A stretch of 64,000 bases of DNA from Candidatus Omnitrophota bacterium (GTDB lineage Bacteria > Ratteibacteria > UBA8468 > B48-G9 > JAFGKM01): positions 303,853-367,852 of the forward strand of contig JAMWDI010000001.1 in NCBI GenBank assembly GCA_023819375.1, read 5' to 3'. The notes beneath the pieces are model-generated. The model was not told the DNA's origin, searched no databases, and saw nothing but the letters and a program-made list of their open reading frames with translations. The position numbers and the translations under genes were made by a program. Within the stretch, counting starts at the first letter, position 1. Every line of letters starts with the position of its first letter. Positions 71 through 5,885 of this stretch are shown here, piece after piece.

Positions 71-544
71 TCAACCCTTGGGATAAATAAAGTAATTTTG
101 AATTAATGTATTTGCCAGCAACTTTTCACATATCTCTTTTACTTCTTTTTCTTTCAAATTTCCTTTTATATAATATTTTTTACCTGTTTTCACTTCAAGT
201 TTCTTCAAAATACCACTTTCAATTATGGTTTTTTTTGCAGTTTCACCAACAGAATCCGTAACACCTTCTTTAAAAAAGACTTCTACAATCCAAAAATTTT
301 TTATTTTCTTAAATTTTCTGTAAACTTTAAAATCCTCTGAAATATTGTCAACAAGTAAATCCCTTGCAATTTTAACAATATTTTTTTTCCCTGCATCTGT
401 TATAATTTTATAAAGATTTGAAACACGAACTTTTTCAACATTTAGAATACCAAGTTCTTTTATATTTTTTTTTATTTCTTTACCAAAAACATCAAATGCT
501 TCCTTTTTTTTAAAAATTTCAACAATCCAGAATTTCTCATTCAT
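71..544 (-). CDS. purS: Tandem-duplicated PurS (FGAM synthase small subunit)
   Basis: PurS is the small structural subunit of phosphoribosylformylglycinamidine synthase, which with PurQ and PurL performs the fourth step of purine synthesis in the cytoplasm. The usual protein is about 80 residues. This one holds two copies in one chain, each opening with a FWIVEV/FWIVEI strand. The second copy is the better match, with the G-V-x-D-x-x-G turn and CEKLLANTLIQNY near its end. In the first copy that turn is changed (EAFDVFG). An ATG at 568 gives eight more residues and a deeper overlap with queD; 544 is preferred because it begins just before the first strand and overlaps the queD stop by only 8 bp. 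Confidence 0.83.
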   Translation of the reverse strand: MNEKFWIVEIFKKKEAFDVFGKEIKKNIKELGILNVEKVRVSNLYKIITDAGKKNIVKIARDLLVDNISEDFKVYRKFKKIKNFWIVEVFFKEGVTDSVGETAKKTIIESGILKKLEVKTGKKYYIKGNLKEKEVKEICEKLLANTLIQNYFIYPKG

Positions 545-905
545 AATAACTTGCACATTGTTTTTCATTTTCCCAGACAGTAACTTTTGAAATTTTTACA
601 GGATAATTTTTAAGCAGTTGTTCCATTTTTTTATAAATAAAAAAAGCAATATTTTCAGAGCTTGGATTTTTTTCTTTAAAAAAGGGTATAAGATTTAAGT
701 TTTTATGATCAAGATAACTAAGTACAATATTAAGTTTATTCTTTAAAATATTAAAATCTATAAGCAATCCTATTCTATCAAGAAATTCTCCACAAACAAC
801 AACTTCTACTTTCCAATTATGCCCATGCAAACTTTCACATTTTCCTTTATAATTCTTTAATTTATGAGCAGAGGAAAACTCACCATAAACTTTTATTTCA
901 TACAT
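537..905 (-). CDS. queD: 6-pyruvoyl-tetrahydropterin synthase family / QueD
   Basis: QueD makes 6-carboxy-tetrahydropterin from dihydroneopterin triphosphate, the first dedicated step to queuosine and other 7-deazaguanines. The 122 residues match the family's single T-fold domain. Zinc-binding histidines are visible in FSSAHKL near the N-terminus and in LHGHNW around residues 27-32. The catalytic cysteine is in GKCESLHG, and ENPSSENIA-like and VWEN motifs follow. The stop overlaps the purS start. No other queuosine gene is in view, so a pterin role is possible. Confidence 0.85.
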   Translation of the reverse strand: MYEIKVYGEFSSAHKLKNYKGKCESLHGHNWKVEVVVCGEFLDRIGLLIDFNILKNKLNIVLSYLDHKNLNLIPFFKEKNPSSENIAFFIYKKMEQLLKNYPVKISKVTVWENEKQCASYYE

Positions 906-908
906 TTT

Positions 909-1997
909 TTAATCTACAAAATTTCTTTTTTTCAAATATTCCACAATTGCTTTACCGAGTGTCTCTGCAATCGCCTGTCTTACTTCAACATCTTTTAAAT
1001 TTATTTCAATAACAGGATTACATATAAAACCAATTTCTGTCAAAACCGAAATCATTGGAGTATATTTCAAAACATAAAAATTACCTCTCTTTGCACCTCT
1101 ATCAGGAGTTATAAGTCTTTCTGCAAGTTTTTCTTGAACTATTTCTGCAAGTATTCTGCTTTCATCAATGACATCTGTTTCATTTAAATTATTAACTATT
1201 TGAGAAAGTATAGGGTCTGGATTATTTTCTTCAATTATTTCACCCTCTCCATTTATTGATTTTGGAAGATAATTTACTTCTGCTTTACTGTATGGATAAA
1301 ATGTTTCAAAACCTGTTGCATTTTCCCTATTTAATCTTGAAGAATTTGTATGAACGGAAAAGAAAATATTGGCGTTTAACGCCTTTGCCATATTTACTCT
1401 ATCTTCAAGTGAAATAAAAATATCCTCTCTTCTTGTTAGATATATTTCAATATTAGAATATTTCTCAAGTTGTTTTTTTAAATATTTTTCAAGACGCAAA
1501 GCAACATCAAGATTTACGTCCTTTTCTTTCAACCCATAGTTCCCAATCGCTCCTGCGTCATGACCCCCATGTCCTGGATCTATAACAATAATAAATTTAT
1601 TATTTTTATTTTCACTATTTAACTTGACTTCTTCAAAAATTTTTTTCGTAGATGGAGTATAACCTGAAAAAATTTGAGAAAAATCAGAAAGTGGGATAAG
1701 GACGTCTCCCTCAATTTCCTTTGCTGGATTTTTCAGTTCAAAACTTCTTCCTCCATAAATTAAATTATTATCATCAATTCTAAATTTTATTTGAGTATCA
1801 TCGATAAAAACAAAAACTCTATCTTCAATTTTTGCCCAATTTTCAGCATTTATTATCTTGAGAAATGTTTTTATAGAGATGTATGGCGTATTTTTTATAT
1901 AATAAATTGGAAACTTTCGCGATTTTACTTCTTCTTCAAGATTTAAAGAAAACAGATTTAAAGTTAAAAATAAAAAAATAAAAAATTTAGATTTCAT
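909..1997 (-). CDS. N-acetylmuramoyl-L-alanine amidase (Amidase_3)
   Basis: Zinc-dependent amidase cleaving the lactyl-peptide bond in peptidoglycan, acting in the periplasm. A hydrophobic signal segment covers residues 1-18. Residues 25-115 resemble the copper-amine-oxidase N-terminal-like domain often fused to such amidases. The catalytic domain starts at FIIVIDPGHGGHDAGAIG; zinc and catalytic residues are visible there, in SVHTNSS, and in the glutamate of LTEIGFICNP. The insertion around residues 230-275 is family-typical. An AGGTGG Shine-Dalgarno precedes the ATG. The gene lies directly downstream of ssrA on the same strand. Confidence 0.9.
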   Translation of the reverse strand: MKSKFFIFLFLTLNLFSLNLEEEVKSRKFPIYYIKNTPYISIKTFLKIINAENWAKIEDRVFVFIDDTQIKFRIDDNNLIYGGRSFELKNPAKEIEGDVLIPLSDFSQIFSGYTPSTKKIFEEVKLNSENKNNKFIIVIDPGHGGHDAGAIGNYGLKEKDVNLDVALRLEKYLKKQLEKYSNIEIYLTRREDIFISLEDRVNMAKALNANIFFSVHTNSSRLNRENATGFETFYPYSKAEVNYLPKSINGEGEIIEENNPDPILSQIVNNLNETDVIDESRILAEIVQEKLAERLITPDRGAKRGNFYVLKYTPMISVLTEIGFICNPVIEINLKDVEVRQAIAETLGKAIVEYLKKRNFVD

Positions 1998-2022
1998 TAA
2001 AAAACCACCTTTAAATAATTAG

Positions 2023-2379
2023 TGGAGGCGGCGGGTACTGCCCCCGCGTCCAGAGAGAATTAAGATAGAGTTTCTACCTGCGTAGTCAGAAGTTTATTCT
2101 TTGGGTAAAAAGGCACTTCTGACAAGCCTTTTTACCCGCATCCTTTTTTAAATAATTTCCTTTGAAGGAAAAAGGATAACCTTCAAAGGAAATACCCCTT
2201 TACCCGACCTGTTTTACAGAGTCAGGGGCAAACTCTGTAAACAGGTGGCTGCATTCTTATGCAGCCAAAACATTTGCAGGTGCGGCAGTTATTTTTTGTC
2301 AGGTTTTTTTACGAGAACCTGACAAACTCGGCAGGCAACTCTATCCCAATTTCTCCCTGTCGAAACCTATTTCGCCCCC
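2023..2379 (-). ncRNA. ssrA: Transfer-messenger RNA (one-piece tmRNA)
   Basis: tmRNA rescues ribosomes stalled on broken mRNAs. The 5' end reads GGGGGCGAAATAGG followed by TTTCGAC, the conserved D-loop-like start. The 3' end CGCCTCC pairs with GGGGGCG as a 7-bp acceptor stem, with discriminator A at 2023. CCA is not encoded (CTA follows) and must be added. Resume codon GCC at 2286 begins a tag reading AAPANVLAA and ending at TAA (2259-2257). Large GC-rich pseudoknot helices surround the tag. Its first 13 nt overlap the end of smpB. Confidence 0.94.
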
Positions 2380-2813
2380 ATTTCTTTCAATTTTCTTTCT
2401 ATCTGCCGCTTAATTTCTCTTTCTTTTAATTCCCTTCTTTTGTCAAAGATCTTTTTTCCTTTCACAAGACCTAATTCAATTTTTGCCAGTCCCTTATTAT
2501 TAAAATATACTGAAATAGGGACAAGTGTCAAGCCTTTTTCTGCAACTTTCCTTTCAAGATGTCTTATCTCATTTTTTTTCAAAAGTAATTTTCTTTTTCT
2601 CAAAGGATCCAATTTTTCTAAAGAGCAAGGATATGGCCCTATATAAAAATTATGAAGAAAAACTTCTCCATTTTCTATTTTTGCATAGGCATCTTTAAAA
2701 GCAATCTTACCTTCTCTTATTGATTTTACTTCACTTCCTTTTAAAACAATTCCCGCTTCTATTCTATCCAAAATTTCATAATCATGATAAACTTTTTTAT
2801 TTTCTATTCTCAT
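2367..2813 (-). CDS. smpB: SsrA-binding protein SmpB
   Basis: SmpB binds the tRNA-like end of tmRNA and brings it to stalled ribosomes. The 148-residue length is standard. Diagnostic motifs are NKKVYHDYEILDRIEAGIVL, GSEVKSIREGK and a basic C-terminal tail ending RKLKEMGAK. The last codons (third base of ATG, then GGG GCG AAA TAG) are also the first 13 nt of mature tmRNA. smpB lies 3 bp after the upstream kinase gene, so the kinase, smpB and ssrA are probably co-transcribed. Confidence 0.97.
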   Translation of the reverse strand: MRIENKKVYHDYEILDRIEAGIVLKGSEVKSIREGKIAFKDAYAKIENGEVFLHNFYIGPYPCSLEKLDPLRKRKLLLKKNEIRHLERKVAEKGLTLVPISVYFNNKGLAKIELGLVKGKKIFDKRRELKEREIKRQIERKLKEMGAK

Positions 2814-2816
2814 TTT

Positions 2817-4427
2817 TTATTCTCTCAATATAAGCAAAAAAAGAATGCCGAGAAGAATAAAAGTTATAATAAAACCTGTAATTCCAGAATAAAAATAATT
2901 TGAAAGAAAAAGAATAATTGAAGATAACAAAACTGCAAATATAATTAAAGAAATAGAAAGTTTTATTCCAGTTTTTCTTATCGCACCTGTCAATTCTTCA
3001 ATTTTTTCTTCTATAATCTCTTTTCTTTCATTTTTTTCTTTAATTGTATTAAGAAAATTTTCAAAACTTTCAGGTATTTCTTTAATTAGATGTTGAAATC
3101 TATCAAAAGATTCCCAAACTTCTTTTAAATAGTAATTAAATTTTATTTTCTTTTCAAGAAATTCAAGGAAAATTGGTTCAATTGAATCAATAAGTCTAAA
3201 CTCTGGAGCAATAAAATGGCATATACCTTCAAGTGTAATCATTGATTTCCCTATTAAAGAAAAACTTACAGGTATTTTAACTTTATGTTTCCTCATTACA
3301 TCAAAACCAGTTTCTATTATTTCTCCAATTTTTATATTTTTTAAAGGAACATTTTTATAAGTATCTATCACATCTTCAATTTCATTTTTCAATTCTTCAA
3401 TATCTGTTTTTCTATCAATAGAACCCATTGCTTTTAAAGTTGAAATTATTTTATCACTCCTACCTTTAATAATACCTGTGATAAGATTCAAAAGATAGTA
3501 TTTTTTCTCATCATCAAGTTTTCCAACAATTCCAAAATCTATTAAAGCAATCCTTCCATCCTTTAAAATAAAAATATTTCCAGGATGTGGATCTCCATGA
3601 AAAAATCCAACTTCAAAAATTTGCTTTAAAATAATATCAATACCATTTTTAAGAACTTTCATCTTATCAACATATTTGCTCCATTCGTCAACTTTACTTA
3701 TTTTAATCCCATCTATATATTCAAGTATAAGTAATTTCTCTGTGCATAATTCTTTATAAACATAAGGAATCAACAATCTTTCATCTTTAATCTTTTCCCT
3801 CATTGCTTCTATATTTTTGCATTCAATAAGAAAATTTAATTCTTTTTTTATACTCTTTTCAAACTCCTGGACTATTTTTAAAGGTTGATAAAGTTCACTG
3901 CCTTCAATAAATTTTTCTATTAATTCTGCTATGTCATATAAAATTTGAATATCTGTATATATCTGTTCTTTTATGTTTGGTCTTTGAACTTTTACTGCAA
4001 CATATTCTCCTTTATATTTTGCCTTATAAACACAGGATAGAGAAGCAGAAGCAATTGGAACTGGTTCAAATTCTTCAAAAATATTTTCTATTTTATTTCC
4101 AATTTCATTTTCTATAGTTTTTTTCATCACTTCAAAATCTTCTTCTTTCACTTCATCCTGAAGTTTTTCAAGTTCTTTAATATATTCAAGTGGTACCAAA
4201 TCAGGTCTTGTGCTTAAAATCTGTCCCATTTTGATATAAGTAGGTCCAAGTTCTTCAAGAATTTTTTTTATCCTCACAGGAATTGAATATTCAATTTTTT
4301 TCTTTTTTCTGAAAGGAATTTTTAAAAGATGTAATTTTTCAATAATAATTCCAAAACCGTACTTAATAAGAATATTTATAAGTTCACGATATCTTCTGAA
4401 TTTCCTTATAGATGGATATTTTCTCAT
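2817..4427 (-). CDS. AarF/UbiB/ABC1 family atypical kinase
   Basis: Membrane-associated atypical kinase/ATPase of the UbiB family, linked in other bacteria to isoprenoid quinone synthesis or lipid metabolism. Characteristic KxGQ-type motif appears as YIKMGQILSTRPD (residues 75-87). A-rich loop ASASLSCVYKA, VAVKVQRP, catalytic FHGDPHPGNIF and DFG (IALIDFGIVGK) follow. Two hydrophobic helices at residues 490-535 would anchor the C-terminus. Length 536 is typical. The ATG abuts the stop of the upstream radical SAM gene. No quinone genes are in view, so the substrate is unknown. Confidence 0.88.
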   Translation of the reverse strand: MRKYPSIRKFRRYRELINILIKYGFGIIIEKLHLLKIPFRKKKKIEYSIPVRIKKILEELGPTYIKMGQILSTRPDLVPLEYIKELEKLQDEVKEEDFEVMKKTIENEIGNKIENIFEEFEPVPIASASLSCVYKAKYKGEYVAVKVQRPNIKEQIYTDIQILYDIAELIEKFIEGSELYQPLKIVQEFEKSIKKELNFLIECKNIEAMREKIKDERLLIPYVYKELCTEKLLILEYIDGIKISKVDEWSKYVDKMKVLKNGIDIILKQIFEVGFFHGDPHPGNIFILKDGRIALIDFGIVGKLDDEKKYYLLNLITGIIKGRSDKIISTLKAMGSIDRKTDIEELKNEIEDVIDTYKNVPLKNIKIGEIIETGFDVMRKHKVKIPVSFSLIGKSMITLEGICHFIAPEFRLIDSIEPIFLEFLEKKIKFNYYLKEVWESFDRFQHLIKEIPESFENFLNTIKEKNERKEIIEEKIEELTGAIRKTGIKLSISLIIFAVLLSSIILFLSNYFYSGITGFIITFILLGILFLLILRE

Positions 4428-5885
4428 TTATTCTTTTAAATATTCCTCTTGCCAAACTGGATCCACAAGTTCCCTATATTTCCTGTTATATTCAGGCATT
4501 TTGCCTTCTTCAATAAATTTCAAGTATTCTACTGCCCCCTCATCAATAGGTTGTGCGTCTGTTTCTTTTACGATTTTGTAAAAATCAAGAGAATTGTCTC
4601 TTATTATACAAGGAGTGAGTAAATTTCCACATTCATTTTTATTTCTTTTTATCCAATAATTATTTTGCCATTCTCTTATTTTTTCAAATAAAGGAGATTT
4701 TATTGCATCTGTTATAGTTTTGCCTTCTTGATAAATTTTATAAATATTTCCCAGATTTTTGTCTTTGAATGGAATAAAAACGCAAGGTGTTATTGTTCCA
4801 TCCCATAAAATATAAAAATAACCTCCTCCCCTTGCACCTGCCATACACCCATCAGAAGCAGTTCCAGAATTCCAGAAATCAGCAATAAAAATTTTTTTCT
4901 CAATAACAAGTTGCCATATTCTTTTTAACATTTTATATCTCTGTTCAGGTGTCACCATTAATTCTACAGAAGGATTTCTACCTATCGGCATATACTGAAA
5001 ATACCATCCATAGAAAGCACCTTTCTTTTCAAAATAAAAATCAATAAATTCATCTGATAAAAGTAAATCAGCATTATATTTTGTTGGAGTAACAGAAATA
5101 CCAAAAGGCACTCCTTCTTCTCTAAGATCATCCATCACTTCCATTATTCTTCTGAAAACACCATTTCCTCTTCTCTCATCTGTATCACTCTCAAACCCTT
5201 CAACCGAGATTGCAGGAGTAAAATTTCCAAGTTCAGCAAGTTTTTTTGCAACATCTTTTTTAATCATAGTTCCATTTGTATAAGCCATAAAATATGCATC
5301 ATTATGCTTTTCAAGAATGTCAAATAATGTTTTTCCATTATCTTTATACATAAATGGTTCTCCACCAGAAATTACAAAAAAGTATGCACCGAATTCTTCC
5401 TTTATTTCCTTTATAATCCTATCAAAAATTTCAAATTTTAAAGTATGTTTTTCATAAATTTCTCCTGCATAACAACCTTTACATCTCAAATTACAAATAT
5501 TAGTTGGAGAAATAGTAACAAAACAAGGGGGTCTGAATCCATGTTTTTCTTCAAATGTTCTTCTTATATATATTCCTTGTATAAATACTTTTCCAAGAAA
5601 AATATTTGTAAGTGCTTTAACACAATTAGGTGAAATACTATCTGTTTCAAACAATCTTTCAATTGAATGTAAAAGTGCTCTTCCCATATAATACCTTTCT
5701 TCAAGTACTTTTTTTGGTCTTTCATAAGTTTTTAGTGACATTTTGTATGTTGCTTTTTCTATTGCATTTATAAGTGCTCTCCTTGCAATTGTATTTCTTA
5801 AGGATGTATTCAAAATCTTAGAAATAACTCTCTGTGAAGAGCCCTTTTCCATAATTGAGAGTATTTTATCTTCAAGTTTAAGCAT
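4428..5885 (-). CDS. Radical SAM protein with SPASM-like C-terminal region
   Basis: The radical SAM [4Fe-4S] site is CNLRCKGC (CX3CX2C) at about residues 131-138, with the GGEP motif in FFVISGGEPFMY. Downstream cysteines in GCMAGARGGG, ITPCVFIPF and ECGNLLTPC suggest an auxiliary cluster as in SPASM proteins. An N-terminal helical stretch of about 110 residues precedes the barrel. AAGGAGG stands just before the ATG. Operon with the UbiB-like kinase and smpB. Reaction unknown; similar proteins modify peptides or lipids. Confidence 0.87.
   Translation of the reverse strand: MLKLEDKILSIMEKGSSQRVISKILNTSLRNTIARRALINAIEKATYKMSLKTYERPKKVLEERYYMGRALLHSIERLFETDSISPNCVKALTNIFLGKVFIQGIYIRRTFEEKHGFRPPCFVTISPTNICNLRCKGCYAGEIYEKHTLKFEIFDRIIKEIKEEFGAYFFVISGGEPFMYKDNGKTLFDILEKHNDAYFMAYTNGTMIKKDVAKKLAELGNFTPAISVEGFESDTDERRGNGVFRRIMEVMDDLREEGVPFGISVTPTKYNADLLLSDEFIDFYFEKKGAFYGWYFQYMPIGRNPSVELMVTPEQRYKMLKRIWQLVIEKKIFIADFWNSGTASDGCMAGARGGGYFYILWDGTITPCVFIPFKDKNLGNIYKIYQEGKTITDAIKSPLFEKIREWQNNYWIKRNKNECGNLLTPCIIRDNSLDFYKIVKETDAQPIDEGAVEYLKFIEEGKMPEYNRKYRELVDPVWQEEYLKE

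Follow-up and report, generated by a model that had tools for sequence, protein, structure and literature searches.

An smpB gene that ends inside the tmRNA gene: a 13-nucleotide overlap conserved in two bacterial lineages, with a putative ssrA promoter in the SmpB reading frame

What becomes of the message for the ribosome-rescue protein SmpB when its stop codon lies within the partner tmRNA encoded directly downstream? The question is raised by a 64,000-nucleotide stretch of DNA, here called the window, from a Candidatus Omnitrophota bacterium (genome of 1.73 Mb in 13 contigs), a member of an uncultured group. No gene adjoins smpB more often than ssrA does (PMC4131195); the gene order is the same here, but in the ordinary arrangement a spacer normally separates the two genes. 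In the window, the minus-strand smpB frame closes with ...AAA GAA ATG GGG GCG AAA TAG, and the third base of ATG, at position 2379, is G1 of tmRNA (Table 1). The first-pass annotation had placed the smpB stop codon inside the mature tmRNA, and the sequence together with the RF00023 match bears this out in coordinates, codons, and tag alike. Three layers of information are thus superposed in one stretch of smpB, namely protein, a putative promoter, and the acceptor-stem 5′ strand of tmRNA.

Table 1. Features of the smpB–ssrA locus and of loci used for comparison; positions are those of the window unless a genome or locus label is given.
Feature	Position	Strand	Basis or remark
N-acetylmuramoyl-L-alanine amidase	909..1997	-	starts 22 nt after tmRNA
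tmRNA gene (ssrA)	2020..2379	-	RF00023, full length
tmRNA tag frame GCC...TAA, AAPANVLAA	2257..2286	-	sequence and tag scan
smpB stop codon TAG	2367..2369	-	tmRNA nt 11-13
smpB/ssrA overlap	2367..2379	-	13 nt; tmRNA nt 1-13 = last base of ATG plus GGG GCG AAA TAG
smpB	2367..2813	-	148 aa, C-terminal end ...KLKEMGAK-TAG; ORF and TIGR00086
Predicted RNase P cut	2379..2380 (between 2380 and 2379)	-	5′ end of RF00023 match; cleavage inferred
-10-like TATATT	2504..2509	-	16-nt spacer, 124 nt before tmRNA
-35-like TTGACA, smpB codons Leu95 (TTG) and Thr96 (ACA)	2526..2531	-	promoter scan and conservation
UbiB/ABC1-like kinase	2817..4427	-	ORF; TIGR01982 417.8 bits, below its cut-off
Radical SAM/SPASM protein	4428..5885	-	ORF and profile match; first gene of probable operon
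Outside-phylum overlap loci	L137 (G072); L138/L159/L160 (G080, G293, G292); L141 (G180); L140 (G266)
rpoB-rpoC fused frame	G000:C8:228864-232349 and rpoB loci L107-L136

Both gene calls are well founded. The Rfam covariance model RF00023 matches the tmRNA gene with 186.1 bits (E = 2.7e-75; gathering score 47) over model positions 1–374, and the 5′ end used here is the one predicted by this model. The acceptor stem is of the alanine type, GGGGGCG pairing with CGCCTCC including a G3–U wobble, and is followed by the discriminator A; CCA is not encoded (ACTA). SmpB reaches 185.2 bits against TIGR00086 (cut-off 119.1), and its C-terminal tail is present in the alignment. A miscalled tmRNA 5′ end or smpB end could be suspected, as ARAGORN reports no tmRNA at window positions 2020–2379 despite the 186 bits obtained with Rfam. 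Against such an artefact stand the full-length match, the acceptor stem, which is intact in all members checked, and related tag frames found in every one of them, AAPANVLAA having an ending of the hydrophobic degron type. Moreover, the 13 nt ending in ..GAK-TAG are the same at every letter in 16 genomes, although identity of their SmpB proteins to that of the window falls as low as 51%, and the overlap is therefore not due to chance. An artefact is exceedingly improbable, and we regard this explanation as nearly refuted.

Within the phylum, 35 genomes were compared. All six genomes of the window's genus and all ten of the sister family f2 share the identical overlap and its frame, so that it is not unique to the window. 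In these genomes, of 0.9–2.2 Mb, SmpB ends in xGAK-TAG, and tmRNA G1 is the last base of the x codon. Named records that share this tmRNA start are metagenome-assembled genomes labelled Candidatus Omnitrophota, candidate division TA06, Vermiphilus, or simply 'bacterium'. The 16 overlap species represent two clades rather than 16 independent cases. Elsewhere in the phylum, other genera and families have smpB–ssrA spacers of 1–191 nt: 15 nt in g3, 32–191 nt in g4 to g6, 44–48 nt in f3, and, in those f4 and f5 genomes that were measured, at least 1 nt. In the rpoB+SmpB tree, the earliest branch of the order is f2, followed by f3 and then by the window's genus versus the spaced members of its family; this topology allows either two gains of the overlap, or a single gain with two or more losses. 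The first-pass annotation had held that relatives with a spacer would speak against its reading. Such relatives are found in the same family as well as in other genera and families, but the overlap has been kept throughout the genus and the sister family f2. As a separate observation, the 3′ CCA is unencoded in the overlap lineages (ACTA, ACTT, and others) and encoded in f3 and g6 genomes.

Overlaps also occur outside the phylum, measuring 8 nt (TGA) in G072, 10 nt (TAA) in G080, 11 nt (TAG) in G180, and 36 nt (TAA) in G266; the arrangement is thus not confined to this phylum and Carsonella. By hand count, smpB lies within 300 nt upstream of tmRNA in about 44 of the roughly 150 outside-phylum genomes in which both genes were located, and 4 overlap, a count that is not a frequency estimate, as the underlying listing favoured high-scoring tmRNAs. 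The overlap of G080 is kept in all three genomes of its genus (G080, G293, and G292), while G072, G180, and G266 have relatives with spacers in the same orders. The four overlaps are independent and lie in unrelated genomes.

How much of this conservation has to be ascribed to selection? TAG at tmRNA nucleotides 11–13 is also present in most spaced members of the order. Thus, a stop codon was available there without special selection, and it is needless to regard it as a special adaptation. Furthermore, SmpB C-termini align to within a few residues of one another, spaced relatives included; consequently, a conserved overlap need not mean selection, and the argument from conservation is weakened. 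Both points fit neutral compaction, in which a deletion took the spacer together with smpB's own stop codon and the frame now runs to the first stop in tmRNA, SmpB being made co-transcriptionally before processing and the overlap having no functional effect. Intergenic distances in the operon are short in any case (3 nt between the UbiB/ABC1-like kinase gene and smpB), and the overlaps of G072, G180, and G266 are sporadic among same-order relatives with spacers, as compaction would have it. It fits less well that the 16 species sampled from the two lineages have all retained the overlap without change, as have 3/3 genomes of an unrelated genus, that it persists even though the final residues seem dispensable and earlier stops could be reached by one-step changes, and that any processed long transcript is physically non-stop. 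Neutral compaction is a possibility to be taken seriously, although we hold it to be somewhat unlikely.

The source of the tmRNA transcript bears directly on the question. The best promoter-like minus-strand site in a scan of 4.3 kb is TTGACA-16-TATATT at 2531–2504, inside smpB; an 18-nt spacing to TATTTT fits too and is the optimum in most overlap species. With its −35 and −10 hexamers, a spacing of 16–18 nt, and conservation beyond coding need, smpB codons 95–104 hold a conserved sigma-70-like putative promoter. A TTGACA with a −10-like hexamer recurs 122–124 nt before tmRNA, where 12 of the 15 scored overlap genomes have their best match in 300 nt and where TTGACA itself is present in all 16 overlap species. 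Including G007, a near-overlap whose 15-nt spacer leaves no room for a promoter, TTG ACA encodes Leu95-Thr96 in 17/17 species. On a tree of 14 overlap species, these two codons have not changed once, compared with 1–8 changes (mean 4.5) at 15 other four- or sixfold degenerate codons whose amino acids never change. The only other unchanging codons are Gly146 and Ala147, and both lie inside tmRNA. TTG is the rarer choice for leucine (0.23 of Leu codons), and most spaced relatives use CTG, CTT, or TTA and ACG, ACC, or ACT at positions 95 and 96. In the spaced genera g4 and g6, which show the ordinary arrangement, a TTGACA promoter-like site for ssrA straddles or follows the smpB stop codon and is carried by the spacer.

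The smpB site is of the same kind as the near-consensus TTGAC-TATAAT promoters of stable-RNA genes in the window's genome: tRNA-Ala (twice), tRNA-Asp, and tRNA-Pro score 15.3–17.1, the smpB site 15.0, and the 99th percentile of the background 14.8. In single genomes, scores are modestly above those of synonymous recoding, with p of about 0.007–0.07 at the strongest and several genomes not significant, and three overlap genomes have a different site that slightly outscores this one. Promoter strength alone is insufficient as proof in single genomes, so the case rests on conservation across species. The modest p values would also suit a different reason for keeping TTGACA at codons 95–96, such as codon pausing, RNA structure, or shared codon bias, with tmRNA coming from the operon promoter, and the protein motif GLT(L/I)VP is conserved anyway. 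This explanation is hard to reconcile with the rarer TTG and ACA in 17/17 species where most spaced relatives have other codons. It is also hard to reconcile with f2 genus g7, in which all eight members have replaced SmpB Phe104 by Thr (TAT ACT), creating a −10-like TATACT, possibly a case of a promoter reshaping a protein. We consider it improbable that the hexamer was kept for such other reasons.

The internal promoter probably supplies much of the tmRNA, which is very likely independent of the full-length smpB transcript. The first-pass annotation had envisaged that an ssrA promoter inside smpB supplying all tmRNA would overturn its proposal; a conserved candidate is indeed found there, probably responsible for much of the tmRNA, so that this objection probably holds by half.

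A second route to tmRNA would lead through the genes upstream. The UbiB/ABC1-like kinase gene and smpB probably form one operon, and its first gene, encoding the radical SAM/SPASM protein, carries, 30 nt ahead of its ATG, a TTCAAA-17-TATAAT element with TG. When a terminator separating smpB from ssrA was sought, none turned up; together with the overlap, this means that any transcript encoding full SmpB also contains tmRNA. RNase P is known to process the 5′ ends of tmRNA (PMC3985003), and the RNase P RNA gene (rnpB) is present in the window's genome (308.8 bits). Given the overlap, a processed full-length smpB mRNA is thus left without a stop codon. Downstream, no terminator was found between tmRNA and the amidase gene either, and the amidase message may owe its 5′ end to tmRNA 3′ processing.

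We consider it fairly probable that smpB and ssrA, joined end to start over 13 nt, are read from two promoters, with a non-stop product arising after the RNase P cut. The overlap, its conservation in two lineages, the lack of a terminator between the genes, and the conserved promoter-like site can be read from the DNA; the steps that follow we infer from the anatomy of the locus and known biochemistry. Transcription from the internal promoter would give short precursors without the smpB start codon, from which RNase P would free most tmRNA, while the upstream operon promoter would give long transcripts with both the SmpB coding sequence and tmRNA. As the acceptor stem requires both tmRNA ends, about 345 nt apart, cleavage would have to wait for tmRNA to be transcribed. 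In the meantime, the first ribosomes could terminate normally at the UAG inside tmRNA, holding the tmRNA 5′ end open. After the cut, the smpB part would end in ...AAA GAA AT, with no stop. Later ribosomes would stall at this ...GAA AT end, which is of the type that tmRNA–SmpB acts upon, and rescue by tmRNA–SmpB would add Ala-AAPANVLAA to SmpB(1–144). The predicted net effect is that each smpB message would allow a limited number of productive rounds, with the limit tightening as trans-translation becomes abundant. Without the tag, SmpB(1–144) would, by alignment, end close to the natural SmpB ends of spaced relatives. RNase P may usually act too late, after the smpB message has decayed or been translated in full, in which case the non-stop product would be negligible.

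This two-promoter arrangement modifies the switch originally proposed in the first-pass annotation. The conserved overlap, the missing terminator, and the presence of RNase P RNA are consistent with that proposal, but the internal promoter probably feeds tmRNA, and tmRNA need therefore not come at the expense of smpB. Its statement that one transcript gives SmpB or tmRNA, never both, is too strong, as ribosomes can finish SmpB before cleavage. The internal promoter leaves the non-stop consequence for the long transcript in place. In its strict form, in which both products come mainly from one shared transcript and the decision point of an adaptive autoregulatory loop is RNase P cleavage, the switch could draw on the overlap, the shared operon without a terminator, the same loop proposed for Carsonella, and E. 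coli arfA as a proven precedent of regulation through a non-stop message (PMC8012679). A conserved promoter inside smpB that would supply tmRNA without smpB, and same-family relatives without the overlap, make this form distinctly improbable.

That the overlap is adaptive, i.e. regulatory, rather than a tolerated side effect, appears rather unlikely to us. Still more doubtful is the full self-limiting circuit, in which RNase P maturation would turn smpB mRNA into a trans-translation substrate, so that SmpB would fall when tmRNA–SmpB is plentiful and rise, as untagged active SmpB(1–144), when rescue is overwhelmed, the internal ssrA promoter keeping the tmRNA supply independent and the circuit having originated several times in bacteria.

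Non-stop feedback has been suggested before: Hudson, Lau and Williams (2014) put it forward for Carsonella ruddii, where smpB runs into ssrA, and reported the overlap nowhere else among about 2,000 complete genomes (PMC4131195); the Carsonella overlap had been noted by Mao et al. (2009), as cited in PMC4131195. Both systems share an smpB coding sequence that extends into the mature tmRNA, by 13 nt in the window, and in both, tmRNA maturation should leave smpB mRNA non-stop. Carsonella differs in having a symbiont genome of 157–174 kb and an SmpB that lacks the central loop and tail. There, the overlap is found in half the strains, the extension is of random sequence, and one ssrA is degraded. 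The lineages described here, in contrast, combine genomes of 0.9–2.2 Mb (1.73 Mb for the window's) and an SmpB with its tail with a frame-locked 13-nt overlap in 16/16 species and a promoter-like site inside smpB. A tiny genome and a tailless SmpB describe Carsonella; they are unneeded for the mechanism.

The closest proven logic is that of E. coli arfA, where the message of a rescue factor loses its stop codon and the product is controlled by trans-translation (PMC8012679), as is predicted here. The arfA non-stop mRNA arises by RNase III cleavage or premature termination (PMC8012679), and the gene contains a stem-loop of its own and has a tested regulatory role. Here, the predicted cut is instead the tRNA-type maturation of the partner RNA. 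In tRNA genes that overlap upstream coding genes, e.g. the Helicobacter FtsW family gene and tRNA-Ile (Table 4 of PMC4131195), RNase P maturation would likewise strip the stop from the upstream message, but the protein is unrelated to rescue, whereas the message in the present case encodes the partner of tmRNA.

Our literature search returned no paper on the overlap beyond the Carsonella work, and a term search of the 2025 tmRNA database paper retrieved no passage on smpB–ssrA overlap. New here are a deeply conserved overlap with an intact SmpB in genomes of 0.9–2.2 Mb, the embedded candidate promoter, and four further overlaps in unrelated genomes. Being conserved and intact, with a putative ssrA promoter written into smpB, the present case is clearly better than that of Carsonella, the sole published one, which had been dismissed as rare and comes from a decaying symbiont genome. 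A conserved, intact case and four independent overlaps turn the matter into a testable question: does making tmRNA limit making its partner?

Two further observations concern other genes. A 165-aa protein encoded at window positions 71–568 (minus strand) contains two stretches that match PurS, and may be a tandem PurS. Finally, nearly all genomes of the phylum have rpoB and rpoC joined in a single open frame of about 2,500 aa, in which the RpoB C-terminus EMEVWALEGYGA continues into the RpoC N-terminus GEVKKAETLNYRT..ERDGLFCEKIFGP.
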